Origin: Paraneptunicella aestuarii
GTDB lineage: Bacteria; Pseudomonadota; Gammaproteobacteria; Enterobacterales; Alteromonadaceae
NCBI RefSeq assembly: GCF_019900845.1
Contig: NZ_CP074570.1
Location: 1,612,001-1,676,000, forward strand
Direction of reading: 5' to 3'
Length of the DNA: 64,000 nucleotides
The notes below the pieces were generated by a model. The model searched no databases. It was not told the origin of the DNA and saw nothing but the letters and a program-made list of their open reading frames with translations. Numbering within the stretch: the first letter of the stretch is position 1; the number at the start of each line of letters is the position of its first letter. The position numbers and the translations under genes were made by a program. This document shows, piece by piece, positions 13,995-31,119 of the stretch.

Positions 13995-14213
13995 ATGTTA
14001 CTAGAAAACATTAATTTTGATGATTTGAACGTTGAAGAAATGAACCTTGAAGGTTTGGAAGTTGCTAACGTGACTAATGCAATGGCTCTTCCTGAAACTG
14101 GCGCTTCTAGCGGTAGTTCTTCTAGCGGTTCTTGCTCTACTTGTGGCTCTTCATCTTGCTGCGGAAGCTGCGGCGGTGGCGATGTTTCAGTAGAAACCAG
14201 CGTTGCTAAATAA
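13995..14213 (+). CDS. Thiopeptide-like (thiazolylpeptide) precursor peptide 1
   Basis: A 72-residue RiPP precursor. Residues 1-36 form an acidic leader (repeated L-N/E-x-E motifs, for example NVEEMNLEGLEV) ending in MALPETGAS, a leader end I associate with the thiazolylpeptide bacteriocin precursor family. The Ser/Cys/Gly-rich core region 37-61 includes SCSTCGSSSCCGSC (46-59), with five Cys. A 13-residue charged tail follows (G60-K72, with D63, E67, K72) and holds no Cys. The AGGA at 13983-13986 is well placed for ATG 13995. The Ser46-Cys47 and Ser54-Cys55-Cys56 pattern parallels thiocillin-type cores, in which two dehydrated Ser form the central pyridine. The modification genes start 850 bases downstream on the same strand. 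Confidence 0.85.
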   Translation: MLLENINFDDLNVEEMNLEGLEVANVTNAMALPETGASSGSSSSGSCSTCGSSSCCGSCGGGDVSVETSVAK

Positions 14214-14617
14214 GGTTAATTAAGCCTTAATCAAGTGCACACCTTGCTAGTTGTCGGGTGTGCCTTTACTCACTTGTTTTCGACATACATAGGTACAGAA
14301 TTTTTAGATTAGAGCTAATGTTTTTTAAACATTCAAACATCTTTTAGTTCCGTTTTTTACTTAAAGGTGTTTCCGTTTCTTCTAGGTTGGAGTAGTAGGC
14401 AGTTTTACGGAGTAGTAATTAAATAACGTTTTTATTTTTGTGTTTTATTTATTTTGTTTTAAAACGTTATGGAAGAAATTGGAAGCACTTCATGTCTTCG
14501 GTTCCGTTTTTCCTTTCCATTTTTATGCCTGCTACTTAATGGTGTTTTTTTATAAGTGTATTTTGTTTATTTAAATTTTCTATATTGTAAATATTCAAAT
14601 TGACAAAAGTGTTTGTC

Positions 14618-14631
14618 TTGGCATACTCGAA
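14618..14631 (+). promoter_or_regulatory. TTGGCATACTCGAA motif upstream of precursor 2
   Basis: The second copy of the 14-base motif found at 13834-13847, here 97 bases before the precursor 2 ATG. A possible -10 box TAAAAT lies at 14639-14644, but only 15 bases after TTGGCA. Conservation between two otherwise diverged upstream regions argues for function. Confidence 0.4.
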
Positions 14632-14633
14632 AA

Positions 14634-14652
14634 GGAGATAAAATTTATCTCC
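14634..14652. promoter_or_regulatory. Perfect 9-1-9 inverted repeat, operator-like
   Basis: GGAGATAAA-A-TTTATCTCC is a perfect inverted repeat three bases after the conserved TTGGCATACTCGAA motif. Its single-base centre makes it a poor RNA hairpin and a good dimeric-repressor site. It overlaps the candidate -10 box TAAAAT, so binding would block transcription of precursor 2. Precursor 1 has no matching repeat at the corresponding place. Confidence 0.45.
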
Positions 14653-14714
14653 ATGTAATATAAGCCTCAGTATTTTCTGTTGGCGAAAATGAATTAAAAA
14701 ATAGGAACGAAGTT

Positions 14715-14933
14715 ATGTTACTAGAAAATATTAATTTTGATGATTTGAATGTTGAAGAAATGAACGTAGAAGGTTTGGAAGTTGCTAGCGTTGCTAATGC
14801 AATGGCTCTGCCTGAAACTGGCGCTTCCAGTGGTACTTCTTCTTGTGGCTCTTGCTCTACATGCGGTTCATCTTCTTGCTGCGGAAGCTGCGGCGGTAAT
14901 GACGTAGAAGTATCTACAGAAGTTAGTAAGTAA
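14715..14933 (+). CDS. Thiopeptide-like (thiazolylpeptide) precursor peptide 2
   Basis: A 72-residue paralogue of precursor 1. The leader differs at three positions (18, 25, 27). The core linker has S41T and S44C, which adds a sixth Cys, while residues 45-61 (GSCSTCGSSSCCGSCGG) are identical. The tail 62-72 is diverged (N62, E65, S67, T68, E69, S71) but keeps its length, acidity and final Lys. Thus the core is conserved while the rest drifts, as expected if the mature product comes from residues 45-61. The same leader 5' sequence and AGGAAC ribosome-binding site precede ATG 14715. A long structured inverted repeat separates it from the transporter genes. Confidence 0.85.
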   Translation: MLLENINFDDLNVEEMNVEGLEVASVANAMALPETGASSGTSSCGSCSTCGSSSCCGSCGGNDVEVSTEVSK

Positions 14934-14958
14934 TTTCTGATTAGTTACTTTTAAGCAG

Positions 14959-15028
14959 GCGCACTTTTAGATACGAAATATTAGAATGATGCGAATCAAT
15001 ACGAATATTTCCAAACCTGAAAGTGCGC
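14959..15028 (+). terminator. Nested inverted repeat between precursor 2 and the exporter genes
   Basis: GCGCACTTT (14959-14967) pairs with AAAGTGCGC (15020-15028). Inside it GAAATATT (14975-14982) pairs with AATATTTC (15004-15011), and a small TGAT/ATCA pair closes the centre, giving a 70-base extended hairpin. There is no T-run, so it is probably a partial terminator or RNA-stabilising/processing structure that sets high precursor and lower downstream enzyme expression, as is common in RiPP operons (inference). Confidence 0.55.
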
Positions 15029-15059
15029 ATTAAGAATTAAGTAAACGGCAGTTAAAGTA

Positions 15060-15797
15060 ATGCAGAAACAGAGTGAAGAAGTGATCAAAGTTACCTCTAT
15101 AAGTAAGACTTATGGTGCAAAATATGCCCTAAATAATGTATCGGTTTCTGTATCCAAAGGGGAAACTGTGGCACTAATTGGCCCCAATGGAGCAGGTAAA
15201 ACCACATTTATAGAAACCATTTTGAATTTAAAACAACCTGATTCTGGTGAAGTAAGTGTTTTTGGAATTGATATTTTAACGAATAAGAAAAAACATTTAC
15301 CAAGAGTGGGTGCTCATTTACAAGAAGTGAGGTTGTTTCCTAAGGTCACGCCTAAAGATTTTCTCGAATTCTTCACAAAACTGTATGACAAAACCGCTGA
15401 TGTTGACGACATCATCGCTTCTCTCGAATTGACTGATTTTGTAGACAAAAAAATCGGTGAATTATCGGGTGGTATGCGTCAACGCGTTTCTTTGGCATTG
15501 GCAATGGTCAATGATCCTGAACTGATTTTACTTGATGAACCGACAGTGGGATTAGATCCCATTGCCAGACAGGATTTTTGGCGCTTAATTGAAAAATTGC
15601 AGGGACAAGGCAAAACCATTCTTTTTACTACTCACTATATGGAAGAGGCCACCACGCTAGCCGATCGTGTCGTGATGATTCATCAGGGGCAGGTGGTATT
15701 CGATGGTACGCCATCGGAAGTTATTGGTAAGGCCGCAGAAATTAACGGCAATCTTGACCAAGCCTATTCTCATTACGTTCAAGCAGCAAATGGATAA
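15060..15797 (+). CDS. ABC transporter ATP-binding protein (drug-export, ABC-2 type)
   Basis: A 245-residue ATPase. Walker A GPNGAGKT (41-48), signature LSGGMRQR and Walker B ELILLDEPTVGLD are intact, followed by the H-loop TTHYMEE. This arrangement is typical of CcmA/NodI-type ATPases that pair with ABC-2 permeases. The partner permease starts five bases downstream. Being first after the precursor genes, the pair probably exports the modified peptide across the inner membrane or gives self-resistance (inference). The ribosome-binding site is weak. Confidence 0.92.
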   Translation: MQKQSEEVIKVTSISKTYGAKYALNNVSVSVSKGETVALIGPNGAGKTTFIETILNLKQPDSGEVSVFGIDILTNKKKHLPRVGAHLQEVRLFPKVTPKDFLEFFTKLYDKTADVDDIIASLELTDFVDKKIGELSGGMRQRVSLALAMVNDPELILLDEPTVGLDPIARQDFWRLIEKLQGQGKTILFTTHYMEEATTLADRVVMIHQGQVVFDGTPSEVIGKAAEINGNLDQAYSHYVQAANG

Positions 15798-15802
15798 TTA
15801 GA

Positions 15803-16558
15803 ATGATTTCAAAGAAGTTTCGCGCATACCTTGTTCTGGATTCCAAAGTTTACTTTCAGGAACCCATGGTTCTCTTTTTCGCACTGATTTTTCCTGCTGC
15901 TATGTACTTGGCGTTTGGAATGTTGTTCGGTGAAACCACTTATGGTTCTGGTGGTAACAGCTATTACGATGAATACACCGCGTCGTTTTTAGGCATTATT
16001 TTATTAAATACGGCACTCTTTAATATTTCCCCTTCTCTTGTTGTATATAAAGAACTGGGATTTTTCCGCCGTTTAATGATCACACCTTTGAGCATTAACT
16101 CCATTGTTTTCTCTACTTTGGTTAAGGCTTTCATTATTTTTGCTCTGGGTATGACAGAAGTCTTCATCCTGGGTTGGTTGATGTTTGACCGTATCCTTCC
16201 TGAATATGTTTTCCAACTGATGTTAGGGTTAGGTGTTTCCGCATTTAGTTTATTCTCTTTCGGATTTATGTTGGGCAGTTTGTTTAATCGCTCTAACTCC
16301 GCTTTTTCTGCCAGTGTATTGATCTTCCAGCCCATGCTGTTTTTGTCTGGCGCTTCAATTCCGTTAGATACCTTCAATGACTGGTTCATGATGATCGCGA
16401 ATGTGGTTCCCATGTATCACGTGGTTGAATTACTGCGCCTTTCCTGGAGCGGCAACCTCTTTACCGAGGCTGCAATTGTACCGGTAGTTGTGTCTATCAT
16501 TCTGGGTTCAATCTGTATTTTTGTTTCAAACAAAACCTTTGAAAAATCAGCTGTTTAG
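15803..16558 (+). CDS. ABC-2 type transporter permease
   Basis: A 251-residue membrane protein with about six hydrophobic segments and the ABC-2 permease pattern: an amphipathic N-terminus, a periplasmic loop at about residues 40-60, and the late conserved stretch LSGASIPLDTFNDWFMMIANVVPMYHVVELLR before the last helix. It pairs with the preceding ATPase. Its place between precursors and modification enzymes points to export of, or immunity to, the peptide product. Confidence 0.9.
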   Translation: MISKKFRAYLVLDSKVYFQEPMVLFFALIFPAAMYLAFGMLFGETTYGSGGNSYYDEYTASFLGIILLNTALFNISPSLVVYKELGFFRRLMITPLSINSIVFSTLVKAFIIFALGMTEVFILGWLMFDRILPEYVFQLMLGLGVSAFSLFSFGFMLGSLFNRSNSAFSASVLIFQPMLFLSGASIPLDTFNDWFMMIANVVPMYHVVELLRLSWSGNLFTEAAIVPVVVSIILGSICIFVSNKTFEKSAV

Positions 16559-16614
16559 CGTCCCTTTGGGATGTGAGCTTTCAGTAAAAATTATCAATAA
16601 GGGTTAGTTGCGTT

Positions 16615-19359
16615 ATGGCTGTAAGGACATCAAAAAACCGTCCTGATAACACATCTTTGAAAGACGGGTTTGTACTGCACCCCAATTACCTGATTCGGGT
16701 ATGTGGTGAGCCTGCTAATTTAATTAATGGCACCACAACCGGGGCAACCAGCGAACATCTGGAGCGTATCTTCCAATTATCTGAATGGTTGCAAAACCAT
16801 AAGGAAGATTACTGCAAGTATGTGGAAGAGCGTGTTCAAGGCTTGGATGATCGTCAGCTCTCCAACAAACTTCTGAAATTAAAGCGTAATATTTTTAATA
16901 TTCGCGCCATTAATCCTGAGTTGCTGGAAGAAGTTAAAACGGTTTTTGATGCTGACAGTTTTCAAAAGGTGTCCGAAATAACCGAGCGCATTAATCAGTT
17001 ATTTGATTATCGAGCGCAGTTGGAAGAGGTCTACAAAGAAGAAAACGAAACAGTCTCTTTGCACTTAAAAGAGATTTGGGACAACGCGGCGAATTTGCAA
17101 CATGCGCTAAGCTATTCCAACACCAAGCTGTTTTCTGATTTTGCTTCTTTATATCGCGACCCGAATAAAAAAGTGAAGCCTAAAAAACGTCGACAGCTTG
17201 AAGCCGGTTTGCTTCGCTATGCTTCTCGCAGCTCATTAAAGACTAGTCCTTTATCCACCTTTACTCCTGTGTTTGTGGGTAAGTGGCGTCAGGCTCAAGA
17301 TCCCGATAATGTCACAATGAGCGGTGAACTTGAAAACCGCATGGAAGTTAAGGCGGGTTTGTTCCAAGCCATGCTGGACAGCTTGTTAAGCAATTATGAG
17401 AAGGTCAAAACGACGTTCCCGCTTAAAGTTAATCCGAGTTTGTCTATTCAAGGTGATCAGATCTTTTTAACCAAGTTGTCTGCGGGCGCGAGCGTAAACG
17501 GACGCGTGTGGGGAACGGGTGAAACCGAGATTAAATTCAAGATTAATCAGGTTATCCAATGCATTTTGGTTGCATTTCAAAAACTGGGTAAAGCCAGTGC
17601 CACTGTGCCTGAAATCATTGCAGCTGTTCTGCAACTCGCGCCAAAACTGGAACAAGGCTTTGTTGATAAAGCCATAGGACAACTGTTTGATATGCAGTTG
17701 TTTGTTACCGATAGCAAGTTCTTCGGACAGGTTGAGCTGTTGGCGTGGTGTAAACAGGTTTTACAAACCGCAAATGATGAAGCTTCGCAACAGGCGTTGC
17801 AGCGACTGGACAATCTGGAAGCGTTATTAAAGCAATTCCCTTTCAATTCTCCCGAAGAAAGGTTAGCGACTGGTCGAGCAATTAATGACGAGATTGCCGC
17901 TATTGCAGAGTGCTTAGAGGCAACGCCAAGTGAAGAATTAGCTCATCCGGCATTCTTTGAAAATAGCTATCTGGTAGATGATTCTGTCTGCATAGATGAA
18001 AACATACTTGCGCCTTTTAGCGATGATTTTCACATGCTGTCGGACTTGTCTCCCTTTTTCGATATTCACCAATTGGCGCAAACTAATTTTGCAGATTTCT
18101 TTTTAGATCGCTTTGGGGCTGAAGGTGAATGTGATGATGTTATCGCTTTCATTAAAGATTTCTCTGATCGCTATGGCGTAGGACAACCTGATTTTGTTCC
18201 TGACCCTGAAAAGCTGTCTCCCTCATCAGATATTACTCGGGGCTTTAAACAGGCCATCGTTGATTTTGTCAGTGAGCTTCTGGATACCGTATTTGCCGAC
18301 GATGAACAGGGCAAGCGTGTTGAATATGTACAACTGAACTCAGAATCATTACAGGCACATATTGAGAAACTACCGCAAGCGATTCGTAATCGTGTGGTTT
18401 CCCATAGCTATTTAGGGCAAATCGCCAGTAAAAATGATGACAAACTGTTTGTGATTAATCAGGTCTTCAGTGGACATTCTGGCTTATTGTCTCGCTTCCT
18501 TGAAGTGCTTGAAGAAGACGATCTCAAAGACATTCGTGATTATTTAAATGATGTTTCCCGTGATGGTACTTATGCCGAAATTCCCGGGTTGTTTGGTTTT
18601 AACGCCAATAAGCATCCTAAGCTGGCTGAACGTGAATTATTACTGGAACCTTTCCCGTCAAATCGTGAAGAAACCGAGAAGCTATCGTTAAAACAGTTGA
18701 AACTGGTTTACGACGCAGAGACTCACAAAGTCTTCTTTAAACAGCCCGACGGCAAGCTGGTTGATTGCTTATACCACGGATTTTTAATGCCGCTACTGTT
18801 GCCGAATATGCACCGTATTCTGACTTTGTTGAATATGAACGGTGTGTTGATTTACGTGTTGCCTATCCTGCGTAGTGGTCGCTTTAGCACGCGTGAAAAG
18901 ATCGGTTTAATTCCTCGCGTTTCTGTTGGCAATACCGTGTTGATCCGCAAGTCTTACATGGTGCCTCGTGAGCTGTTGCCTTCTGTAGAATTAAGCGAGC
19001 TGGAGTTTTTTGAAGCCATTCAGTTGTTCATTAAGGAACATAAGCTGCCGAGTGCGGGATTTATTCGAGTATCTCCCTTTGATACCAACCCGGGCTCTAC
19101 AGACAGTAAACTGGATTGGGCGAATCTTGATTTCAAGAATATGAAGCCTTTCTACGTGGATTTCCGTAATCCTCGTTTGGTGCAGCTATTGTATCTGGCG
19201 TTGAGCCGTAATGATTATCCTATCGTGATCAGCGAAACCTTGCCGGATGTTGACGACCAGCATTTACAGGTTGATGGAAAGTACCACGTTGCTGAGTTCC
19301 AATTTGAAATGACCAGAAAACCTGTTGTGTCAGGTGCAGAGTCAGAAGCACCGGAATAG
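16615..19359 (+). CDS. LanB-type dehydratase, glutamylation domain (TbtB/TclK-like)
   Basis: A 914-residue protein of the lantibiotic dehydratase N-terminal family. In thiopeptide pathways the split LanB transfers glutamate from glutamyl-tRNA onto Ser/Thr of the precursor, and a separate SpaB_C-like protein eliminates it to leave Dha/Dhb. The motif SRSSLKTSPLSTFTPVFVG (about residues 200-220) corresponds to the conserved LanB region, with the Lys-Thr-Ser-Pro form seen in thiopeptide enzymes. The C-terminal half includes IPRVSVGNTVLIRKSYMVP, also typical. Its length without a C-terminal elimination domain fits the split form. ATG 16615 follows AAGGGTTAG. Six biosynthetic genes continue with minimal gaps. 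Confidence 0.9.
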   Translation: MAVRTSKNRPDNTSLKDGFVLHPNYLIRVCGEPANLINGTTTGATSEHLERIFQLSEWLQNHKEDYCKYVEERVQGLDDRQLSNKLLKLKRNIFNIRAINPELLEEVKTVFDADSFQKVSEITERINQLFDYRAQLEEVYKEENETVSLHLKEIWDNAANLQHALSYSNTKLFSDFASLYRDPNKKVKPKKRRQLEAGLLRYASRSSLKTSPLSTFTPVFVGKWRQAQDPDNVTMSGELENRMEVKAGLFQAMLDSLLSNYEKVKTTFPLKVNPSLSIQGDQIFLTKLSAGASVNGRVWGTGETEIKFKINQVIQCILVAFQKLGKASATVPEIIAAVLQLAPKLEQGFVDKAIGQLFDMQLFVTDSKFFGQVELLAWCKQVLQTANDEASQQALQRLDNLEALLKQFPFNSPEERLATGRAINDEIAAIAECLEATPSEELAHPAFFENSYLVDDSVCIDENILAPFSDDFHMLSDLSPFFDIHQLAQTNFADFFLDRFGAEGECDDVIAFIKDFSDRYGVGQPDFVPDPEKLSPSSDITRGFKQAIVDFVSELLDTVFADDEQGKRVEYVQLNSESLQAHIEKLPQAIRNRVVSHSYLGQIASKNDDKLFVINQVFSGHSGLLSRFLEVLEEDDLKDIRDYLNDVSRDGTYAEIPGLFGFNANKHPKLAERELLLEPFPSNREETEKLSLKQLKLVYDAETHKVFFKQPDGKLVDCLYHGFLMPLLLPNMHRILTLLNMNGVLIYVLPILRSGRFSTREKIGLIPRVSVGNTVLIRKSYMVPRELLPSVELSELEFFEAIQLFIKEHKLPSAGFIRVSPFDTNPGSTDSKLDWANLDFKNMKPFYVDFRNPRLVQLLYLALSRNDYPIVISETLPDVDDQHLQVDGKYHVAEFQFEMTRKPVVSGAESEAPE

Positions 19360-19369
19360 GGAGTCAGTT

Positions 19370-20527
19370 ATGTGGAATGTGATCCGAATTGCCTATTTCG
19401 ATAACGACAAATCAGCATTGTTGCAAAACCCGGTAAAAGACGTGGTGGAGCATATTCAGCAGTTGGATTTACGTGTCTTTATGACCAGCCATTGGAAGTT
19501 TGGCCCTCATGTAGATCTTGTGGTGGATTGCGATGTTGAACAGTTTAATAACGACATTTTCCCCTATGCCAAACAACATATTGAAAGCTGGTTAGCTGAC
19601 AATCCTGCAACGGCAGAGCTTAATGCACAAGAATACGAGCGTTTATCGTATCAGTTAGCAATGAGTGAATTAGAGCCACCCCCTTACTTGCCATTATTAG
19701 AAAATAATCAGGTAACCGTGGGCTTATATCAGCGTAGTCAAGCCATCAATATTGCAGGTTTTCACGATACCAAAGAACAGTTTCTGGTCGATAGCACGGG
19801 CTTATTGTTTCATTTGATGGGACTGAAAAAAGCCAATAGTGACGTGTTTTTTGTCTGCCTGATTTTCATGATGGCATCGGTGGCAGCCAAGTTTAAGCCT
19901 GATGGTATCAAGCGAGGTTACATCTCTTATCGCTCTCATGCTGAATATTTCTTTGAAAATTTTGACAAGCAGGACGCCTTACGAGGCAAGTTTGATCTGT
20001 TGGACAAGAAATATGCGCCATTGATTGATAGCAATTTGCCGTTTGTGGTGGACGATAAATTTACTGAAATGAGCTTGCCACCTTCGGTGCAATCCATGTT
20101 GCAGTATTGGAATCATATTGTGGTGACAACCTTTGACAATAATCGTCAGGTGGTCGATCAGAATTACGAACAAATTATTCGTGAAGATAGTGAAGTATCC
20201 AGCACAGAACAGAATTTTGCTGATTTGGCAGAGTCTGTTTCCAGTCAAGTGCCGGAAGACGTTAATAAACCCAGCCGGGATTACAATACGGGCAAAGTGG
20301 TTAACACGGCGTTGCAGCATGAGGAAGGGCGTCAGTTATTCCGCTCTCATGACTTCATCACTTATCGCACAACAGTGAATTACTTTTATCTGTTGTTGCC
20401 AGTGTTAGATATCACACCCGTACAAAAATTTTCCTTGTGCCACATTATCGCCAACTCGGTTGAGCGCGTGTATGGCATATCCTGGAAAGATGTGATCCCT
20501 TCAGCGGTAGGAGGGGAAAATGAGTAA
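19370..20527 (+). CDS. Divergent SpaB_C-like protein, candidate thiopeptide macrocyclase or elimination enzyme
   Basis: A 385-residue protein. ATG 19370, with AGGGAG seven bases upstream, is preferred to an in-frame ATG at 19325 that lies inside the previous gene. The N-terminus (WNVIRIAYFDNDKSALL... then HWKFGPHVDLVVD) echoes the R-Y-x-x-x-G-P-H-x-R/D-x-x region of the thiopeptide-type SpaB_C domain, but is more degenerate than in the 25975-26964 gene. A cluster with two SpaB_C-like proteins is the rule for thiopeptides: one (TbtC/TclL) eliminates glutamate and the other (TbtD/TclM) performs the formal [4+2] cycloaddition forming the pyridine. The more divergent and longer protein is the better macrocyclase candidate (inference). 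It overlaps the next gene by eight bases. Confidence 0.65.
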   Translation: MWNVIRIAYFDNDKSALLQNPVKDVVEHIQQLDLRVFMTSHWKFGPHVDLVVDCDVEQFNNDIFPYAKQHIESWLADNPATAELNAQEYERLSYQLAMSELEPPPYLPLLENNQVTVGLYQRSQAINIAGFHDTKEQFLVDSTGLLFHLMGLKKANSDVFFVCLIFMMASVAAKFKPDGIKRGYISYRSHAEYFFENFDKQDALRGKFDLLDKKYAPLIDSNLPFVVDDKFTEMSLPPSVQSMLQYWNHIVVTTFDNNRQVVDQNYEQIIREDSEVSSTEQNFADLAESVSSQVPEDVNKPSRDYNTGKVVNTALQHEEGRQLFRSHDFITYRTTVNYFYLLLPVLDITPVQKFSLCHIIANSVERVYGISWKDVIPSAVGGENE

Positions 20528-22382
20528 CGCAGCCGAACAAGATTTATTCGCACGTAATTTGCGTCTGAAAGGTCATATCTATTTTAATAAAGTCGCTGAC
20601 GGCGTTTATTTCCAAGGGCAATCTGGTGGCTTTATCTTAAAAGGTGACGGCATTTATCCATTGGTTGCCAAGATCATCAGCTTTATTGATGCCGGTTTTA
20701 GCTTGCTGGATATTCAGAGCAAATTGCCTGAAAAGCTACGTCCATTCTTCACCAATCTGATCACGCAATTGGCGCAGCATCAAATGTTGATGCCTCGTGA
20801 CGCTGAGCAGCTAGTGCCTGAATCATGGATGGCATTTACTCATTTCCGTGATCTGTTCCGTTATTTAAGCGAATCCTCTGCTGATTTCATCAACCTGTTT
20901 CCACAATGGCAAGAGCAAAAGATTGCCTTGGTGGGCGATGGTTATGTGTTGAAATCTGCGCTGGAAGGGGTAGCGACTTCGGGTATTCAAACGCTAACTG
21001 TAGTGATGACCAAAGAAACCATTTCCCGTCAGGAAATCAAAGATGCGCTGGACTATTACTCTGCAAAGCTTCCAGGTTTTAGCGCCGAGCTGATTTTAGC
21101 TTCCGAAGGCGCGACGACGGATGTGAGCGGTTTCGATCAAATTCTGTATTGTTCGACTCAATTGCAGGCAGGTCATAGCTATTATCATCATGCTGAACAG
21201 GCGTGTCTGGTTGCAGGCTTGTTATACGGGCAAGCTGTGGTGTCACCCTTGTCCAGTGTTTCTGGCACCGGATTCAATGACATGGCAGAGCAGTTAACCA
21301 GAGTCAGTGCCGACAGTGACTTAAGCTTCCCGCAAGCGGGGCTTTCCATGTTGGGTAGCATTGCCGCTTTGAATGTCATCAAAGGCTTTTTCGATATTGA
21401 TGTTTCAGGTTTGAGCAACTACGTTTATCGAGTTTCCAGCCATTTGGAAATGTCTCGGCATCCCTTATTGCCAGTGGAAGTGAGCAGCGGCATTTCAGCG
21501 GATGAAGTCAGACAGTTTCAGGCTGAGTATGAAATGCCGGATGATCGCGAACTGGAACAATACGAACAGGTGAGGTTAGCTTTAACTGCCTATTTTGATC
21601 CTTTGTTGGGTTGCCTTGATGAATCTGTCGGTAAGGAAGTAAAACAGGTGCCTCTGTTCCATTCCAAGCTAAGACTGAGCTTCCCAAGCTCCATGGATTG
21701 CGCTGCGAAAGAGGTGATGAGCTGTGGCCTAAATGCGGCAACTGCGGGATTACGTGCGATTGCTCAGGCATTATCGTTACGCACCGCGACTCAGTTGGGT
21801 GTTCCTGTTTCCCGCATTACTACAGATTTTGACCAGCAAAGCTGGGAGAAAAACGCTTATGCGCGATTGGTGTCGGAGCAGCCTGAATTTGTGCAAAAAG
21901 CGCTGTCTGCGCGTATTAATCTGATGCAGTTGGACGATGAAGAAATGCAATTGCTGTTGCACTTTCTTCAATCTGTTGGTTATCGCCATGATGCCCTGAT
22001 TTTGTACTGGGATGAAGCTTGTTACTGCTTTGTTGCCAGCATTCAATTGTTAAATTCAGACACTGCCTATTCAACAGTTGCTGCAACGGCAGAACAAGCC
22101 ATTCGCGACTGTTTGTGTGGTGTTTATCTACAGGCTCAGTTTGATGAGGCAAACGTTATTGAATCGGCGATTGATTTGGCGTTGCCAGAAGTGCAGTTTA
22201 CTGATCAAACTGGCGAAGTATTACGAGAGTTATTACATCATTCTGCTGCCAAATTGCCAAAACTGGAACGCGTGCAAGGTGACGTGATGTTAGCGACTCA
22301 CGGCATTTATTCAGGCTATGCCTTATTAGCAGAAGAAAGCAGTGTTGAAGAGAGCTGTGTTGATAAAATAGGTGGTGTGTAA
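20520..22382 (+). CDS. TOMM/thiopeptide ThiF-like partner with N-terminal RRE (TbtF-like)
   Basis: A 620-residue protein matching in length and plan the 'putative thiazole-containing bacteriocin maturation protein' (ocin-ThiF-like) family. Residues about 15-95 look like a RiPP recognition element, a winged-helix leader-binding domain (VADGVYFQGQSGGFILKGDGIYPLV...). Residues about 134-155 (KIALVGDGYVLKSALEGVATSG) form the Rossmann-like start of the E1/ThiF-like fold, with degenerate adenylate-binding glycines and no catalytic Cys expected. Role in the family: it binds the precursor leader and delivers it to the YcaO enzyme encoded next. Its stop and the next ATG share the TAATG junction, implying stoichiometric synthesis of the partners. 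Confidence 0.82.
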   Translation: MSNAAEQDLFARNLRLKGHIYFNKVADGVYFQGQSGGFILKGDGIYPLVAKIISFIDAGFSLLDIQSKLPEKLRPFFTNLITQLAQHQMLMPRDAEQLVPESWMAFTHFRDLFRYLSESSADFINLFPQWQEQKIALVGDGYVLKSALEGVATSGIQTLTVVMTKETISRQEIKDALDYYSAKLPGFSAELILASEGATTDVSGFDQILYCSTQLQAGHSYYHHAEQACLVAGLLYGQAVVSPLSSVSGTGFNDMAEQLTRVSADSDLSFPQAGLSMLGSIAALNVIKGFFDIDVSGLSNYVYRVSSHLEMSRHPLLPVEVSSGISADEVRQFQAEYEMPDDRELEQYEQVRLALTAYFDPLLGCLDESVGKEVKQVPLFHSKLRLSFPSSMDCAAKEVMSCGLNAATAGLRAIAQALSLRTATQLGVPVSRITTDFDQQSWEKNAYARLVSEQPEFVQKALSARINLMQLDDEEMQLLLHFLQSVGYRHDALILYWDEACYCFVASIQLLNSDTAYSTVAATAEQAIRDCLCGVYLQAQFDEANVIESAIDLALPEVQFTDQTGEVLRELLHHSAAKLPKLERVQGDVMLATHGIYSGYALLAEESSVEESCVDKIGGV

Positions 22383-24442: not shown

Positions 24443-25978
24443 ATGGGCGCTAAGGTGAATGAGATGCAAACGGCTAAATTGACAACACTGACATTAAAAG
24501 ACGCTTGGGGGCTGGCGACAGATCGCCGCTTCGACAACCTGAATATGCCTATATTGCAGGACAGCCGTCATTACGGCGCGAAAGCGGATAAGTCGTCAAA
24601 AATGGCTAAGTTGGTGTTTTTGAATACCAATGTGCCTCGTCAGGCTCAGTCATTTGCTGATTTCCTGGCTGGAAAGCCGTGTTCGTTATCTGAATTGTCT
24701 TTTGCTGACAAAATGAGTTTGGTGCTGCGTTATTTGGCTTCTCCGGTTCGATATGAACCGTTAAATCGTCCAGATGTGCATTATCCGGTAAGCTCTTTTG
24801 GTGGTTTGTTTTCCTGTGGCATTAAGTTGATTGTTAGACATGAAAAAGAAAACCAGAGTCAGTCGAACAACGTAGACGTTTATCACTATCACGCTAACTA
24901 CCACGCGCTGGAGCAGGTGGCTTCTAATGTGAATTACGGTACTGAATTGGCGGCGGGCGAATGTCATATCGCTATTGTTGGCCATTATTGGGCGGTTGCT
25001 CGCAAGTATGGTGAATATTCCCCTTATGGCGTGGTGCTGGATGCGGGAATCGTACTTACGCAGTTGCAGTATTTATTAGCATTGGCTGGCGTTGCAGCCA
25101 CCACAGAAAAGACTGATTTACAGATGTTACAGTCATTGTTGGTTGAATCCGATAGCGTTCAGCAAACTTTGGCGGCCTTGAGTCTTTCCATTGACGATGA
25201 ACATAACGCGTTAGCCTTTTTGCAACAGACACAAACGCATCGAGTGTCTATCTGGTCTGAGCCGGAAGGTATTCATGAACGTTTCCACAACTTGCAAAGC
25301 TTGTTAGATATTTTCGCCACGCCTTATGAGGTTTGTGAAGCTGCTCATTCTAAACAGACACTGTCGGAACAAGCTCTAGCTGAATTACCACAGGACGATG
25401 TGCTGGATGTCTTGGTTCGCCGTTCGGCAGCTAACGATGCCACTGGATTTTCTCAAATTAATAAAGTGCTGGATGCGGGCTTCCTGACTCGATTTTTGTC
25501 TGTGTTGACTGGATTGAAAAGCCGCCGAGAAACTATGCCCGCAGAATCCGCTTTGCAGGTGAAAGTGGCCTGGATAAATCCATATGGCCCGGCAATTGGT
25601 ATGTACGATGGCGCAGGTGAACTGCAATACCAGCCTAATCAGACCGAAGCCTTTTTAGATATCTTGCGCGACTGTCTTTATAGCGATAACCAGAAATATA
25701 ATCTGGCTTCGATGGCCTTTGAGCTGTTTGTTACGGTTGATACCGCACAACTGGAGCGGGATTACGGTGACGCTGCCATACGGTTGGCGCATATGGCGGC
25801 CGGAGCCTTGGGGCATGATATCTGCCTGGCTGCGTCTTTGTTTGACGCTTTCGCTCGTCCGGTACGTATGTTCCGCGACACCAAATTACAGCAGCGACTT
25901 GGACTGGAAGGACAGCTAGTGGTTCAGGTTCTGGTTGGTTTTAACCGCCATCACAACTTTGCATTGAAACTATTATGA
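24443..25978 (+). CDS. SagB-type azoline dehydrogenase (FMN)
   Basis: A 511-residue nitroreductase-like protein expected to oxidise thiazolines to thiazoles with FMN. SagB-type landmarks: VSSFGGLFSCGIKLIV (about residues 112-127, cf. PSAGGLxPxELYLV), DVYHYHANYHALE, and HYWAVARKYGEYSPYGVVLDAGIVLTQL (about 180-210, cf. R-x-x-x-KYG-x-R-x-Y-R-x-x-LLEAG). It is longer than minimal SagB proteins, with an extra C-terminal segment (about residues 370-505) typical of thiopeptide-cluster dehydrogenases. ATG 24443 has AGGGGAG 12 bases upstream; ATG 24464 is an alternative. The stop overlaps the next gene's ATG. Confidence 0.85.
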   Translation: MGAKVNEMQTAKLTTLTLKDAWGLATDRRFDNLNMPILQDSRHYGAKADKSSKMAKLVFLNTNVPRQAQSFADFLAGKPCSLSELSFADKMSLVLRYLASPVRYEPLNRPDVHYPVSSFGGLFSCGIKLIVRHEKENQSQSNNVDVYHYHANYHALEQVASNVNYGTELAAGECHIAIVGHYWAVARKYGEYSPYGVVLDAGIVLTQLQYLLALAGVAATTEKTDLQMLQSLLVESDSVQQTLAALSLSIDDEHNALAFLQQTQTHRVSIWSEPEGIHERFHNLQSLLDIFATPYEVCEAAHSKQTLSEQALAELPQDDVLDVLVRRSAANDATGFSQINKVLDAGFLTRFLSVLTGLKSRRETMPAESALQVKVAWINPYGPAIGMYDGAGELQYQPNQTEAFLDILRDCLYSDNQKYNLASMAFELFVTVDTAQLERDYGDAAIRLAHMAAGALGHDICLAASLFDAFARPVRMFRDTKLQQRLGLEGQLVVQVLVGFNRHHNFALKLL

Positions 25979-26964
25979 GTATGAATTACACACGAAACTG
26001 GACAGCATTTCACATTTTCCTGCACGACGTTGAGCAGCAGGAGCGCTTTATTCGTGAGTGGTTGTCGGTGAAGGTGAAAGACATTAAAGCCTCTGGCAGC
26101 GCTGATGCCTGGTTCTTCTTGCGCTACTGGGATGGCGGCCCTCATGTTCGTGTTCGCTTTTTGAATCTGAAAAATGCAGAGGCTTTGCAGCAGGAAATCC
26201 AAAGCGCAGCGCAGCAATATATCAGTGTCACGCCTCTGACGGCAGAGCAGTATTACGGTAATCACAGTTTTGATGGTGAGCCTGTGGATTTTGCTTCATT
26301 GCAATGGCATGACGACGGTTCGGTCGAGATGTTTGATTATGAGCCTGAATTCGCTCGTTATGGCGGTGAACTTGCCATTACGGTGAACGAGGATCTGTTT
26401 TATATTTCCAGTGAAATTGCTCAGGCCATTATCGCAGCGACACAAGGCAAGATTGAACAGCGCTTGCAGCTTTCCATGAAAATCATTGCTTGTAGTATTT
26501 TTGCCATTAACCCAGAGCCAATGGCCTTGCAGCAATTCGCAACTTATTATGCTGAGTTTTGGCGCGGGCATGCTGGCGGTATTAATCCTGGAAGCCCAGA
26601 TGTACAACTACAAGCAACATTAGAAACCTTTCGTCAGGAAACCATTAACAATAGCTCTGCTGGCGGCTCTTCTGGTGGCTCTTTTGGAGTGATAGGCACT
26701 TGGGTTAATTTTCTTAAGAAAAGTGTTCCACAATGGCAAAAGATATACGAGGATGGAGGTCTGATTTCTCCTGTTGATGGAAGTAAGGTGTCTTCAACAG
26801 AACAATTTCATATGGCGATAATGAGCATGGTGGGTTCCCAGATCCACATGCTGAACAATAGGTTGGGGGTAACCCCGGCTTACGAGTTTGTGCTGGCTTC
26901 GCGTATTCGTGATGCTCTGGCGACAAACGCTTCTGCAACAAGTTCTCCAACAGAGATAGGTTAG
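25975..26964 (+). CDS. Thiopeptide-type SpaB_C domain protein, probable glutamate-elimination enzyme
   Basis: A 329-residue protein with the canonical SpaB_C signature close to the N-terminus: WTAFHIFLHDVEQQERFIREWL, then AWFFLRYWDGGPHVRVRFLNL (about residues 43-63), where Arg and His of RYxxxGPHxRxRF belong to the elimination active site in lantibiotic and thiopeptide enzymes. Known role: removal of glutamate from glutamylated Ser/Thr, leaving dehydroamino acids. It carries a Ser/Gly-rich linker (SSAGGSSGGSFG, near residue 225). Overlap with the dehydrogenase stop (ATGAG) suggests coupled translation. An alternative role as the macrocyclase, with the 19370-20527 protein doing elimination, cannot be excluded. 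Confidence 0.78.
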   Translation: MSMNYTRNWTAFHIFLHDVEQQERFIREWLSVKVKDIKASGSADAWFFLRYWDGGPHVRVRFLNLKNAEALQQEIQSAAQQYISVTPLTAEQYYGNHSFDGEPVDFASLQWHDDGSVEMFDYEPEFARYGGELAITVNEDLFYISSEIAQAIIAATQGKIEQRLQLSMKIIACSIFAINPEPMALQQFATYYAEFWRGHAGGINPGSPDVQLQATLETFRQETINNSSAGGSSGGSFGVIGTWVNFLKKSVPQWQKIYEDGGLISPVDGSKVSSTEQFHMAIMSMVGSQIHMLNNRLGVTPAYEFVLASRIRDALATNASATSSPTEIG

Positions 26965-26969: not shown

Positions 26970-28130
26970 ATGTTGGGTGATTTGATGCTATCCTGGGCCA
27001 ATATCAAGCGTAACAAGCTGAGAACCTTGTTACTGCTCTTCACTATTTGTTCCGGTTTCCTTATTTTCGGTGTGCTAGGCACGCTTAATTTTTCCATGTC
27101 TGGCGGTAGCGATACCTTTGCTCAAAGCCGTTTGATGGTCATGAGTCAAGGCGGCTTGGTGAATCCGTTACCGCTTTCCTATCAACAACGCATTGCCAAG
27201 ATTGATGGTGTTGAATCGGTGGGGCACGCCACCTGGTATGGCTTGCATTATCAGGACACAGATCAGGATATTATGTCTTTTGCCGTGGATGCGGAAAACT
27301 GGATCCCACAACACCCTGAAATGGTGATGGAGCAAGGGGCGGTGGATAACTTCCTGCGTACCAAGAATGGCTTGTTGGTGAATTATCACATTGCCAAGCG
27401 TTTTGGCTGGCGAGTCGGCGATGTCGTCCCGCTGAAAAGTATTTTATTCCAGCCCAGTTCTGGTGAAGGTTTCTGGTCTTTCAAGGTGAGTGGTTTGTTT
27501 ACGACAACGGATGAGTCTGGCGGTCGTAAGTATGTCATCGCTCATTATGATTTTTTGAATGACAGTCGGGTGATTTGGCAGAACACGGTGGGCACTTTCA
27601 TTGTTGTGCCAGAAGAAGGCGTGGAGCCAAATCAGTTGGCGACTCGTATTGATGATCACTTTTTGCGTTCATCTAATAATACTTTTTCTGCGACGGACAA
27701 AGCCTTCCACGATGATTTCTTTAAGCAGTTTGGTGATGTGTTTTTCATTATCAAAAGTGTCGTGTTGATTTCGTTTTTATCTATCGTATTGGTTGTTGCC
27801 AGTACCATTGCACTCACTGTGCGCCAACGCACACGAGACATTGGGGTGTTGAAAGTGATTGGTTTTTCCAATGCACGTATTTTCGGCATCATTTATGGCG
27901 AAACCTATATTTTGGTGGCCATTGGTGCTTTGGTTGGCTTGGCGCTGAGCTTTGGCGTGAACAAAGCCATGATTTATTACTGGCCGATTATTCCCGATAT
28001 TAATTTGCCTTCCTTCGTTGTGCTGCAAGCTATTGGAATTGCGCTGATGCTAGGTGCGATTGCCGGGCTTATTCCCAGTATTCTGGCGTTGAAAATGAAA
28101 CCAGCGGAGGCATTTAAAGTCCATGAGTAA
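26970..28130 (+). CDS. MacB/LolC-like ABC permease (FtsX family), first of pair
   Basis: A 386-residue permease: one N-terminal membrane helix (about residues 18-38), a large periplasmic domain (about 40-265), then three C-terminal helices with the FtsX-domain stretch TVRQRTRDIGVLKVIGFSNARIF between the first two. This 1+3 topology is that of MacB/LolC/LolE permeases, which act on substrates in the periplasm rather than pumping through the inner membrane. It begins five bases after the SpaB_C gene and overlaps the second permease by eight bases, so it belongs to the same operon. Confidence 0.88.
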   Translation: MLGDLMLSWANIKRNKLRTLLLLFTICSGFLIFGVLGTLNFSMSGGSDTFAQSRLMVMSQGGLVNPLPLSYQQRIAKIDGVESVGHATWYGLHYQDTDQDIMSFAVDAENWIPQHPEMVMEQGAVDNFLRTKNGLLVNYHIAKRFGWRVGDVVPLKSILFQPSSGEGFWSFKVSGLFTTTDESGGRKYVIAHYDFLNDSRVIWQNTVGTFIVVPEEGVEPNQLATRIDDHFLRSSNNTFSATDKAFHDDFFKQFGDVFFIIKSVVLISFLSIVLVVASTIALTVRQRTRDIGVLKVIGFSNARIFGIIYGETYILVAIGALVGLALSFGVNKAMIYYWPIIPDINLPSFVVLQAIGIALMLGAIAGLIPSILALKMKPAEAFKVHE

Positions 28131-29289
28131 GCTTGGTTTATATTTGCATTTCTTTGCTATTTCTACGCGTTTCATGTTGAAACAGAAGTGGATGTCGTTG
28201 ACCTCAACTCTGTCGATTACCTTGGTGGTGATTGTGCTGATTGGTTTTTTGTCGATGGCGAAAGGCTTTGAAAAAGCACTGACGAACTCGGGTTCAGAGA
28301 ACATTGGCATTGCTTTAAGCTCTAATGCTCAAACTGAGATCACCAGTGATGTGAGCCAGGAGCAGGTAGAAATCCTGCGTGGTTTGGTGACTCAGGCGTA
28401 TGGTTCCAAGCAAGTGATTTCGCCTGAATTGGTGATCATTGTTTCTGGTAATTTGCGTGGCTCGGATAAGAAAATCAATATCAACCTGCGAGGGTTATAC
28501 GAGAATGCTGTGTCGCTACATGAAGGCTTTGAGTTGGTTGCCGGTCGCATGTTTAGACCCGGTACGGCTGAGTTGATTGTGGGTGAAAATCTGTCGCGCC
28601 GAGTATCTGGTTTGGATATTGGTAATGAAGTTCGATTGGGTGGCGTGGATTGGCGCATCGTCGGTACGTTCAAATTACAGGGTAATTTGTTTGAATCGGA
28701 AGTGTGGGGCAGTGTGCAAACGGTACAGAGTGACTTTGAGCGTCAGAACCAGTTTCAGTCTGTAAGAATGCCGATTGTTGACGAAGATTCCTTGATTAAC
28801 CTGATGCTGTTGATTGGAGACGAGCGTCGTCTGGATCTGATCCTGCAAACAGAAAAAGAATATTTTGTGCAACAGTCCAGCAGCACGGTTGGGTTGATTA
28901 AATATATAGGTTGGCCGCTGGCGATTATCCTTTCGATTGGTGCGTTTTGTGGCACGTTCAATACGTTGAAAATGGCGGTGGATGCCAGACAGCATGAATT
29001 GAAAATCCTGAGTTTATTGGGCTTTCAGCGCAGCATCGCGTTTTTTATGTTGATGTATGAAGCGTTTATTTTCTCCTTGATTGGAGGTGTGTTGGGCATC
29101 GTTATTTCCTGGTCGCTGTTTGACGGCCTGTTGGCTTCTACTTTTGGTAGCAGCTTTAATACGGTGTCGTTTGCTTTGCATGTGGATAGCCTTACGTCGT
29201 TGCAAGCATTTGGACTGGCTGTAGCGGTAGGATTGTTCTCGGGATTAATTCCTGCGTACTCGGGCATGAAAGTGCGAGCCGGGAAGTAG
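28123..29289 (+). CDS. MacB/LolE-like ABC permease (FtsX family), second of pair
   Basis: A 388-residue paralogue of the preceding permease with the same 1+3 helix plan: an N-terminal helix after MLKQKWMSLTSTLS, a periplasmic domain, then an FtsX region containing DARQHELKILSLLGFQRSIAFFMLMYEA. The pair presumably forms a heterodimer driven by the ATPase at 30439-31119. The ATG lies within the last codons of the first permease. Substrate inferred from position: the mature peptide. Confidence 0.88.
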   Translation: MSKLGLYLHFFAISTRFMLKQKWMSLTSTLSITLVVIVLIGFLSMAKGFEKALTNSGSENIGIALSSNAQTEITSDVSQEQVEILRGLVTQAYGSKQVISPELVIIVSGNLRGSDKKININLRGLYENAVSLHEGFELVAGRMFRPGTAELIVGENLSRRVSGLDIGNEVRLGGVDWRIVGTFKLQGNLFESEVWGSVQTVQSDFERQNQFQSVRMPIVDEDSLINLMLLIGDERRLDLILQTEKEYFVQQSSSTVGLIKYIGWPLAIILSIGAFCGTFNTLKMAVDARQHELKILSLLGFQRSIAFFMLMYEAFIFSLIGGVLGIVISWSLFDGLLASTFGSSFNTVSFALHVDSLTSLQAFGLAVAVGLFSGLIPAYSGMKVRAGK

Positions 29290-29310
29290 TAGTAAAAAAG
29301 ATAGACGACC

Positions 29311-30435
29311 ATGACTGACAAAATACAAGCATTAAACGAACTTCGAATTGACCGCTCTGGGCAGAAAGTCCGTCGTGCCAATAGAAATAAAAAAGCGCTG
29401 GCAATAGCTCTTGTTGTTGCGTTGGGTGCTGGCTATATGGGGTGGCAGGAGTGGTCGGCGGATGATCAATCTTCGCACACAGCACGTTCTGTTAGTCGCG
29501 TAGATACTTCTTCTAACCAAGGAGGACGTGCAGAATCTAATGTTGTTGTTTCCAATACGTCTCTTTCCACAACCAGTTCATCGGATAACGACGTTAACAA
29601 AAAGCCTTCGATAACTGGCAGTATTCTTGAAGTGTCGGGGCATATTACGGCACAACGTATTGCCACGGTTTCAGCCAAAACCATTGGCTTGATCAACGAA
29701 GTATACGTGGAAGAGGGCGTTAAGGTTGAGGAAGGTCAGGCTCTTGCTAAATTAGACACTCGCATTGCTGAGCTGGATTTGCAATTGGCTGAAAGTCGTC
29801 GTGCTTTGTATAAAGCCGAAGTAGAGAAACGCGAAGCTGAGATTCTGGATGCCAAGCGCAAGTTAAAAAGACAACAGGACTTGATGAGCGAGAATTTCTC
29901 GAATCAGTCAGACATCGATACTTTAACCATTAATATCAAAGTATTAGAAGCGAATCTGGAAACCGCAAAAACCAATGTATTGCTGAATGAACTTGAGATT
30001 GAGCAGCTGCAAAAACGCTTGTCGGATCATACTATTCGAGCACCTTTCTCGGGCGTTGTCACAACCAAAAATGCACAGCCGGGGGAGATCATCTCGCCAA
30101 GTTCCGCGGGGGGCGGTTATACCCGTACTGGTATTTGCACCATTGTTGATATGGCATCGCTGGAAATTGAAGTGGATGTGAATGAGTCGTTCTTGAACAT
30201 GATCAGTGAAGGGCAACGAGTACAGGCTGAATTATATGCTTATGAAGATTGGCATTTTGAAGGACGAGTCAAGAAGATAGTGCCAACTGTTGACCGCTCC
30301 AAGGCCACGGTGCGAGTGCGCATCGAAATCCTGGAAAAATCCGAGCGCATCTTACCCAATATGGCGGTGAGAGTCAGTTTTATGGAAGACCAGGCACAAG
30401 CTATAGCCGGGCATGCATTGACAGGAATGAAGTAA
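29311..30435 (+). CDS. Membrane-fusion (periplasmic adaptor) protein, MacA/HlyD family
   Basis: A 374-residue adaptor. It has one membrane helix near residues 28-46, then a Ser/Thr/Asn-rich linker (about 50-100), a split lipoyl-like domain (VSAKTIGLINEVYVEEGVKVEEGQALAKLD ... TIRAPFSGVVTTKNAQPGEII), an alpha-helical hairpin (about 150-215, heptad-rich) and a beta-barrel domain. Such proteins join an inner-membrane pump to a TolC-type outer-membrane channel. No TolC homologue is encoded in the window, so a housekeeping TolC is probably used. Its presence argues that the peptide is exported across both membranes. Confidence 0.88.
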   Translation: MTDKIQALNELRIDRSGQKVRRANRNKKALAIALVVALGAGYMGWQEWSADDQSSHTARSVSRVDTSSNQGGRAESNVVVSNTSLSTTSSSDNDVNKKPSITGSILEVSGHITAQRIATVSAKTIGLINEVYVEEGVKVEEGQALAKLDTRIAELDLQLAESRRALYKAEVEKREAEILDAKRKLKRQQDLMSENFSNQSDIDTLTINIKVLEANLETAKTNVLLNELEIEQLQKRLSDHTIRAPFSGVVTTKNAQPGEIISPSSAGGGYTRTGICTIVDMASLEIEVDVNESFLNMISEGQRVQAELYAYEDWHFEGRVKKIVPTVDRSKATVRVRIEILEKSERILPNMAVRVSFMEDQAQAIAGHALTGMK

Positions 30436-30438
30436 ACC

Positions 30439-31119
30439 ATGATAAAACTACAAAACGTTAAAAAAGCTTATCATCGCAAAAACGCTGATGTCCGGGTGTT
30501 TGATGATTTGAACTTTTCTATCAATGAAGGTGATTTTTACGCGGTAATGGGGCCTTCCGGCACAGGTAAAAGCACCTTTTTGAATTTGGTCGGTGGTGTA
30601 GACAGGGTTGATTCAGGTGAATACTGGTTCAATGGCGAACGTATCGACGGATACACTGAAGGACAACTTTCAGAGTGGCGTTCACATCATGTTGCTTTTA
30701 TTTTTCAGTCATTTAACTTGCTGAAAATATTAAATGCCGCAGAAAATGTTGAACTGCCTTTGCTTCTGACAGATTTGCCCAGTGCAGATCGTAAACGTCG
30801 AGTGATGAAAGCCTTGGAACTTGTAGGATTACAGGATCGTGCTGAGCACTTACCCGATGAATTGTCTGGAGGCCAGCAACAAAGGGTAGCCATTGCACGC
30901 GCGATTGTTTCTGACACGCCTTTGATTTTGTGTGACGAACCAACGGGTAACATTGATGCGGAAGCCACCGAAGAGATTTTGGAAATATTACAGCTATTGA
31001 ATAAAGAGTTTAAGAAAACCATTGTGATGGTGACACACGATTTACATGCTGCCGAGTATGCCAACCAATTGTTTTCTCTTGAAAAGGGTAACTTTGAAGA
31101 AAAGTTCGCTCAGAGCTGA
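30439..31119 (+). CDS. MacB/LolD-like ABC ATPase
   Basis: A 226-residue ATPase: Walker A GPSGTGKS (about residues 38-45), Q-loop FIFQSFNLL, signature LSGGQQQRVAIARA, Walker B LILCDEPTGNID and H-loop VTHD. The LolD/MacB/FtsE subfamily is indicated by the SGGQQQR and EPTGNLD-like motifs. It follows the adaptor by three bases and completes an export system with the two FtsX permeases. It ends the part of the cluster with a clear assigned role. Confidence 0.92.
   Translation: MIKLQNVKKAYHRKNADVRVFDDLNFSINEGDFYAVMGPSGTGKSTFLNLVGGVDRVDSGEYWFNGERIDGYTEGQLSEWRSHHVAFIFQSFNLLKILNAAENVELPLLLTDLPSADRKRRVMKALELVGLQDRAEHLPDELSGGQQQRVAIARAIVSDTPLILCDEPTGNIDAEATEEILEILQLLNKEFKKTIVMVTHDLHAAEYANQLFSLEKGNFEEKFAQS

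Follow-up and report, generated by a model that had tools for sequence, protein, structure and literature searches.

Thiopeptides are a family of ring-shaped antibiotics made mainly by Gram-positive bacteria, and the locus described here raises the question of whether a Gram-negative organism could make, close and export such a peptide. The window, a 64,000-nucleotide stretch of the 4.91-Mb single-contig genome of Paraneptunicella aestuarii, carries at positions 13995-32197, all on the forward strand, a thiopeptide gene set in which six enzyme types and the precursors stand together in one operon; all reading frames are open, and between 15060 and 32197 neighbouring genes overlap or are separated by at most 56 bases. 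A first-pass annotation of the sequence had named the genes from 13995 to 31119 in this order on one strand, nearly without gaps, and had taken them for a full thiopeptide-type enzyme set in a Gram-negative genome. All of these genes are present, they fall in thiopeptide families of Pfam and NCBIfam, and the genome groups in one genus with Alteromonas sp. a30 (lysS 92% identical, with two genomes of the genus in the comparison). The cluster is read as a thiopeptide biosynthesis and export operon with a probability of roughly nine in ten.

The first support for this reading comes from the two precursor peptides:

13995..14213, forward strand: precursor peptide 1, with a 37-residue leader ending in ALPETGA and the core SSGSSSSGSCSTCGSSSCCGSCGGGDVSVETSVAK
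14715..14933, forward strand: precursor peptide 2, with a leader similar to that of precursor 1 and the core SSGTSSCGSCSTCGSSSCCGSCGGNDVEVSTEVSK

Against the Thiopep_pre profile PF19409 the two score 53.8 and 54.1 bits, respectively (cut-off 23.5), and both also lie above the cut-offs of NF033400 (48.1 and 50.7 bits) and TIGR03892 (28.7 and 36.6 bits). Since both reach about 54 bits and a genome-wide search returns only these two Thiopep_pre matches, the resemblance is more than chance. The single YcaO match in the genome likewise lies in the cluster. A profile of the precursors compared with the PDB gave one chance-level match (E 0.78).

The second support comes from the enzyme that would close the ring:

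19370..20527, forward strand: [4+2] pyridine synthase, TbtD/PbtD-like, assigned by profile, fold and tyrosine column

The first-pass annotation had spoken of two SpaB_C-like proteins, and both indeed match PF14028, but their roles differ: one is, on the basis of its profile, predicted fold and active-site column, the [4+2] pyridine synthase, while the other (25975-26964) is the split LanB elimination protein. The synthase, whose start is most likely the ATG at 19370 (385 residues) rather than an upstream TTG at 19325, scores 33.8 bits against PF14028 (cut-off 24.4), and a profile built from 19 relatives recovers TbtD from the PDB with an E-value of 2.3e-33, along with PbtD. The twelve best fold matches of its AlphaFold2 model (pLDDT 86.8) are all PbtD or TbtD chains (TMt 0.79-0.87), followed by TsrL and then by LanB-type dehydratases; in these fold alignments the synthase is 17-20% identical to TbtD and PbtD. 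Further, its Tyr340 falls in the column of PbtD Tyr293 and is a tyrosine in 19/19 aligned relatives. Tyr293, taken to be catalytic, is the residue replaced in the PbtD variants of known structure (Y293F according to the title). These observations bear on the possibility that the TbtD-like gene performs no cycloaddition and that the product is a linear peptide with azoles and dehydroalanines, similar to goadsporin. Excerpts of PMC4603692 (the other articles cited below are likewise drawn on in excerpt) do describe goadsporin-type clusters as having split LanB genes, as here; however, they also describe the goadsporin and coryneazolisin clusters as lacking a cycloaddition enzyme. This cluster has one, whose predicted fold resembles those of TbtD and PbtD and whose tyrosine column is conserved, and a linear product is thus quite improbable.

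The remaining modification enzymes are the following:

16615..19359, forward strand: split LanB glutamyl transferase, TbtB-like (PF04738, 77.5 bits)
20520..22382, forward strand: ThiF-like F protein, in which an N-terminal RRE (RiPP recognition element; RiPP, ribosomally synthesized and post-translationally modified peptide) is expected (TIGR03693, 27.7 bits; cut-off 561.9)
22382..24409, forward strand: fused C/D YcaO azoline cyclodehydratase (PF02624, 257 bits; TIGR03604, 315, cut-off 219; TIGR03882, 69.8, cut-off 36.9)
24443..25978, forward strand: SagB-like azoline dehydrogenase (PF00881, 24.2 bits, cut-off 23.5; TIGR03605, 42 bits, cut-off 78.4)
25975..26964, forward strand: split LanB glutamate-elimination protein, TbtC-like (PF14028, 139 bits; TIGR03891, 94, cut-off 48)

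Searches with hidden Markov models place the SpaB_C-like and LanB proteins inside the families to which they had been ascribed, none of them falling elsewhere. The YcaO protein matches TruD, LynD and further solved YcaO proteins, the sole solved relative found for the glutamyl transferase is 6ec7 ('Lantibiotic dehydratase domain protein', E 4.7e-17), and the elimination protein weakly matches a solved lantibiotic dehydratase (E 1.5e-4). The F protein has no Pfam match, and its residues 11-89 show a weak match to the solved PbtF 8t19 (E 0.016); among clusters of the fused-cyclodehydratase group, 85% are reported to have an F protein (PMC4603692). The SagB-like dehydrogenase has no significant PDB match. 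Two sets of observations weigh against the thiopeptide assignment. First, the matches to NF045556, the pyridine synthase model (201.8 bits against an equivalog cut-off of 325, scanned with 15 extra N-terminal residues on the protein), to TIGR03605 and to TIGR03693 all stay under the curated cut-offs, so that the dehydrogenase and the F protein are assigned partly by context and position. Second, no product has been seen, and searches of the open-licence PMC literature turned up no isolated product of such a cluster.

From the families to which these proteins belong, a pathway can be proposed in which the F protein and the fused YcaO enzyme would bind the leader and convert Cys, and some Ser, to azolines, which the SagB-like enzyme would oxidise to azoles. 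The LanB glutamyl transferase would activate Ser with Glu-tRNA and the separate elimination protein would release dehydroalanine, whereupon the pyridine synthase would join two dehydroalanines by [4+2] cycloaddition, closing the ring and expelling the 37-residue leader as an amide; hence, no leader protease would be needed. The product could then be exported by the ABC-2 transporter and a MacAB/Lol-like pump, whose outer-membrane partner would be encoded outside the cluster; a DUF2141 protein might act in the periplasm, probably by protecting the cell itself or by handing the product over.

Which two serines would be joined can be approached through the conservation of the core. Among 143 precursors, 135 from database searches and eight from the window and related loci, 94 are distinct over the first 20 core residues, and these display a nearly fixed pattern in which the final Ala of the leader is followed by S1-S2...S11...[STC]16-S17-[STC]18. 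Ser11 and Ser17 are each present in 94/94, Ser1 in 92/94, Ser2 in 93/94 and one or the other of Ser1 and Ser2 in 94/94; Cys13 is found in 93/94, and Ser, Thr or Cys occupies position 10 in 85/94, position 16 in 93/94 and position 18 in 94/94. In lactazole the pyridine is formed from Ser1 and Ser12; the product is lost when position 1, 10, 11 or 12 is changed to Ala, and efficient maturation depends on Cys13, the required pattern being Dha1 with Dha10-Oxz11-Dha12-Thz13 (Dha, dehydroalanine; Oxz, oxazole; Thz, thiazole) (PMC7210931, PMC10979747). The window cores carry Ser1 together with S15-S16-S17-C18, a lactazole-like combination of Ser1 and an S-S-S-C stretch. As this stretch corresponds to lactazole positions 10-13, ring closure would fall between Ser1, the residue after ALPETGA, and Ser17 of the SSSC motif. 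These serines are 16 positions apart rather than 11, and the Ser1-Ser12 spacing of the 32-membered lactazole ring is thus not found; by a rule of 3n-1, which returns the known 32 for lactazole, the predicted ring would have about 47 atoms. The odds for this closure are about even, with a ring of 44 atoms between Ser2 and Ser17 as a close alternative. The natural thiopeptide rings reported have 26, 29, 32 or 35 atoms (PMC7210931, PMC7345755), but rings of 62 and 68 atoms have been made in vitro from engineered precursors by the lactazole and pyritide enzymes (PMC7210931, PMC9247985), which indicates that size poses no chemical bar. With every Cys counted as thiazole, Ser16 as oxazole and the number of dehydroalanines varied, the products would have predicted neutral masses of 2739.8-2883.9 (precursor 1) and 2900.9-3008.9 (precursor 2) for full-length cores, or of 1553.3-1868.4 and 1599.3-1935.4 for a tail trimmed after residue 22 or 25.

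Several features of the same cores speak against a ring from Ser1 to Ser17. Ser11 is conserved without exception, like Ser17 and unlike Ser1, which is Thr in two cores, while one core has Gly at position 2; in some actinobacterial cores a C10-S11-C12 stretch also resembles a classical site, which leaves some probability for a ring of 29 or 17 members. In addition, one of the 94 cores carries a one-residue insertion, so that its in-register counts are accidental, and the precursors sampled are top-ranking matches, one search having contributed the best 120 of 446 passing candidates out of the 8000 sharing most words that were scored. The same pathway might instead join Ser1 to Ser11, giving a ring of 29 atoms, a known natural size (PMC7345755), with the residues from 12 onward as an azole-rich tail; Ser, Thr or Cys at position 12 in 94/94 and at position 10 in 85/94 would suit such a closure as well as does the invariant Ser11. 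However, the other nine cores have His, Asn or Arg at position 10, or Ala in the case of the core with the insertion, and none of these could give an azole ahead of the ring serine; further, position 16 is azole-competent in 93/94, and the SSSC motif that resembles lactazole is found at 15-18 rather than at 11. This makes a Ser1-Ser11 ring unlikely, though it is the more serious of two such options. The other is a small ring of 17 atoms between Ser11 and Ser17, the only serine positions at 94/94, with residues 1-10 lost along with the leader. A ring of 17 members is known from the natural pyritide A2 (PMC9247985), but this closure would discard the conserved, Cys/Ser-rich first ten residues of the core, and the 37-residue leader ending in ALPETGA is already near the 38 residues of the lactazole leader (PMC10979747); it is therefore an improbable alternative to the Ser1-Ser17 ring.

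The next question is whether the precursors are expressed and maintained. Two putative promoters precede them:

13815..13843, forward strand: sigma-70-like promoter of precursor 1, TTGACT-N17-CATACT
14600..14627, forward strand: sigma-70-like promoter of precursor 2, TTGACA-N16-CATACT

The layout TTGAC-N16/17-CATACT lies upstream of all four precursors of the window and a30, and before none of the three Idiomarina, Glaciecola and Bowmanella precursors (Lysobacter, Massilia and Tumebacillus being outside the comparison). On their own, the promoter and terminator scans do no better than shuffled sequence, the bare promoter consensus being found five times against 7.0 in shuffles, and the weight of these calls therefore comes from cross-species agreement only; each precursor probably has its own promoter. 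Over LPETGA and the core, precursor 1 differs from precursor b of a30 at no amino acid and by 11 synonymous codons out of 31, while precursor 2 differs from precursor a of a30 at one residue, with 11 synonymous differences. The core-region codons are under purifying selection, and the residues appear to pair the precursors across the two species, as would be expected had the two products been maintained separately. Weighing against a long-separate pair, the two copies in the window lie within a 247-base repeat (84% identical) and differ by 9 synonymous codons, as compared with 20 between the two in a30, and gene conversion or a recent duplication may have occurred in the window lineage. Apart from this duplicated unit, no repeats of note were found flanking the cluster. 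The G+C content of the precursor stretch (0.38-0.40 against about 0.45 around it) might point to foreign or silenced DNA, and thereby to a decayed or silent cluster without a product. Nevertheless, the open frames throughout, the purifying selection on the core codons and a promoter layout common to two species leave very little room for this view.

The cluster is rare but not unique, and the suggestion that it stands alone, or on its own points to a new compound class, is not supported, as homologous clusters and already named precursors exist. Whole-genome searches find the synthase in 5/295 genomes of the family (4/52 genera) and in 1/369 genomes sampled from the class, the genome itself being counted in each. 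A scan of genome contigs with the synthase profile recovered seven loci, in Alteromonas sp. a30, Idiomarina xiamenensis, Glaciecola sp. MH2013, Bowmanella dokdonensis, Lysobacter sp. cf310, Massilia arenosa and the Firmicute Tumebacillus avium. All seven have precursors that share one core plan with those of the window and, as far as their contigs reach, the enzyme genes. Within the contigs (that of the Massilia cluster ends after YcaO), gene set and order are kept in the six proteobacterial loci, except that four of them have the transferase and synthase (B and D) genes fused and DUF2141 at another position; the Tumebacillus locus has the six enzyme genes. In the latter genome, three tandem precursor genes (L008:6551-7091) encode identical 49-residue products, and there are an additional nitroreductase and another ThiF-like gene. 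In Idiomarina xiamenensis the SagB-like gene lies in two reading frames of 77 and 410 residues (L003:14994-16489), possibly a break or a sequencing error.

The proteobacterial clusters form two lineages. In the split lineage, comprising the window, a30 and Idiomarina, the glutamyl transferase and synthase are separate genes and DUF2141 follows the pump, whereas in the fused lineage (Glaciecola, Bowmanella, Lysobacter and Massilia) transferase and synthase form a single protein of 1276-1285 residues and DUF2141 precedes the precursor. The four fused genes lie at L004:7280-11137, L005:7283-11134, L006:7286-11140 and L007:7298-11128. Well-supported branches of a 24-row synthase tree separate the four rows labelled as fused from the six labelled as split, three of the latter having been labelled from protein length alone. 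TfuA is found in 4/4 genomes of the fused lineage, with no match in Tumebacillus; for the three split-lineage genomes, those of the window, a30 and Idiomarina, PF07812 likewise has no match, so that the TfuA partner of thioamidated thiopeptides was not found there. Downstream of the pump ATPase, Glaciecola has a ThiS-rhodanese-ThiF fusion, another YcaO and then TfuA, and Lysobacter has another YcaO and TfuA; for Bowmanella the scans, which did not take in the stretch between them, confirmed the fusion and TfuA. The Massilia TfuA and a YcaO are on a contig of 13,092 bases, apart from the cluster on its contig of 24,412 bases, which makes their link to it tentative. The fused lineage might thus form thioamides. 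The genes following the cluster in Glaciecola (L021:4200-8369) and Bowmanella (L022:1380-5546) look like a self-contained source of sulfur for making thioamides.

Within the genus, identity between the window and a30 is 86 and 93% for the precursors, 61-87% for the transporters, 63% for the pyridine synthase and 47% (F) to 71% (YcaO) for the other enzymes, and the two synthases fall in different subgroups of the tree. The cluster adjoins lysS in the window, and in a30 it adjoins secD and a gene named secF by position. No cluster gene occurs in the 18 kb around lysS of a30, and in the 14 kb around secF of the window genome only secF was matched, with none of the eight other flanking proteins of a30. 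These differences suggest that the cluster was likely acquired separately, or has moved, in the two species.

Beyond the modification enzymes, the operon encodes the following proteins:

15060..15797, forward strand: ABC-2 exporter ATPase (PF00005, 123 bits)
15803..16558, forward strand: ABC-2 exporter permease (PF01061, 68.6 bits)
26970..28130, forward strand: MacB/Lol-like permease 1 (PF02687, 57 bits)
28123..29289, forward strand: MacB/Lol-like permease 2 (PF02687, 50.5 bits; PF12704, 45.5 bits)
29311..30435, forward strand: periplasmic membrane-fusion protein, MacA-like (TIGR01730, 131 bits; cut-off 94.9)
30439..31119, forward strand: pump ATPase, with DarD of darobactin export as its best NCBIfam match (NF038007, 231 bits, below the cut-off of 375)
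31172..31615, forward strand: secreted DUF2141 protein (PF09912, 92 bits; scanned as 31154-31615)
31640..32197, forward strand: DUF7010 membrane protein (PF22765, 132 bits)

The ABC-2 genes occur in 8/8 loci, including the window. The two permeases and the fusion protein are found in each of the six proteobacterial loci that extend to this region (the window and L002-L006; L007 ends earlier) and are unmatched in the 21-kb Tumebacillus stretch, as expected if they serve the crossing of a second membrane. The first-pass annotation had ended the cluster at 31119, which is too early: the DUF2141 gene belongs to it, and the DUF7010 gene is shared with a30 (72% identical). The latter has no match in the downstream flanks of Idiomarina, Glaciecola and Bowmanella, and its membership is uncertain.

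A DUF2141 gene is found in 7/7 proteobacterial clusters. Its products there all have an LCx5FPxxC motif (7/7), as against 0/6 non-cluster homologues, and by this alignment pattern the cluster proteins form a two-cysteine subfamily. DUF2141 is matched in 8/20 genomes drawn from the species itself, its congener, the family and the order, one copy in each; in the window genome and a30 the cluster copy is the only one, and the stretches around the six non-cluster genes hold no thiopeptide enzymes. As judged by eye, the N-terminus is signal-peptide-like in the window copy and lipobox-like in that of a30. The predicted model is beta-rich (pLDDT 80), and a fold search against the PDB returned no match at E 0.001 or better; mentions of DUF2141 in the open-licence literature include none in RiPP papers, judged by title. 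The protein is thus a candidate immunity or product-handling factor, which might act in periplasmic self-protection or hand-over.

Resistance through an altered L11 was considered and set aside: the sole L11 match carries PPVGPALGQ and is presumably ordinary. Adjoining the cluster on the opposite strand, 33038-36397 encodes a 1119-residue protein with a TolB-like propeller and amidohydrolase domains, which also matches a lasso-peptide isopeptidase model at 73 bits, under its cut-off. Farther away, 57573-61102 holds two tandem alkaline phosphatase genes, one with an additional DUF7151 domain.

Thiopeptides block translation and rarely pass the outer membrane, and a Gram-negative producer must make, export and survive its product; the pump, DUF2141 and the product would thus offer a way to test how peptides of this kind get across the envelope of a Gram-negative cell. 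Tentatively, and at somewhat less than even odds, the clusters might represent a Gram-negative thiopeptide branch with a natural ring of 44-47 atoms, a dedicated two-membrane pump, a purpose-built periplasmic DUF2141 for self-protection or delivery, two lineages with and without thioamides, and the same core plan across Proteobacteria, Firmicutes and Actinobacteria. Such a ring, if real, would lie beyond the reported natural range of 26-35 atoms, which engineered precursors already exceed in vitro.

Clusters of this general kind are already known: TfuA-bearing proteobacterial thiopeptide-type clusters were published in 2021 (PMC8120280), and precursors named 'thiazolylpeptide-type bacteriocin' are in the databases for Idiomarina, Bowmanella, Aquimonas, Chitinimonas, Pseudorhodoferax, Sandaracinobacteroides and Teredinibacter. 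The present cluster shares with the 2021 clusters, as excerpted, Gram-negative hosts and thiazolylpeptide-type precursors but differs in that its genome has no TfuA match and belongs to the lineage with split B and D genes; its variant features are this split, TfuA-free Gram-negative lineage, the two-membrane pump, the two-cysteine DUF2141 and the predicted over-sized ring. Litoralimycin, considered as a characterised relative because of its host genus, was rejected; its paper describes a 35-membered, berninamycin-like compound and is without the words 'gene cluster' and 'precursor'. Excerpts of PMC6306032 and PMC4289311 yielded no relative.

Among characterised systems, lactazole (laz, Streptomyces lactacystinaeus) is similar in leader length (38 residues, 37 here), in having Ser1 at the leader end and in the S-S-S-C stretch feeding the pyridine (PMC7210931, PMC10979747). 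It differs in its 32-membered Ser1-Ser12 ring, low Cys/Ser/Thr content, unmodified Trp2 and five enzymes LazB-F, as against a predicted 47 atoms, a Cys/Ser-rich core, two precursors, an F protein, separate dehydrogenase and elimination genes and an envelope pump here. Thiomuracin and GE2270 have the classical 29-atom ring. Their clusters (tbt and pbt) have the same six enzyme types, going by the gene roles in tbt; the synthase aligns with TbtD and PbtD and the transferase matches 6ec7, but precursor group and host are others, and synthase identity is 17-20%. The pyritides of Micromonospora rosaria are likewise peptide rings closed by a pyridine with loss of the leader, but their cluster is described as lacking azole-forming genes and their rings have 14 and 17 atoms (PMC9247985), whereas YcaO, F and SagB-like proteins are present here. 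Finally, the pump resembles darobactin-type and MacAB-type exporters in its ATPase, permeases and fusion protein, the ATPase matching DarD best; it differs from them in that the DarD, LolD and MacB-type matches all lie under the equivalog cut-offs and in that its predicted cargo is a peptide of another class.

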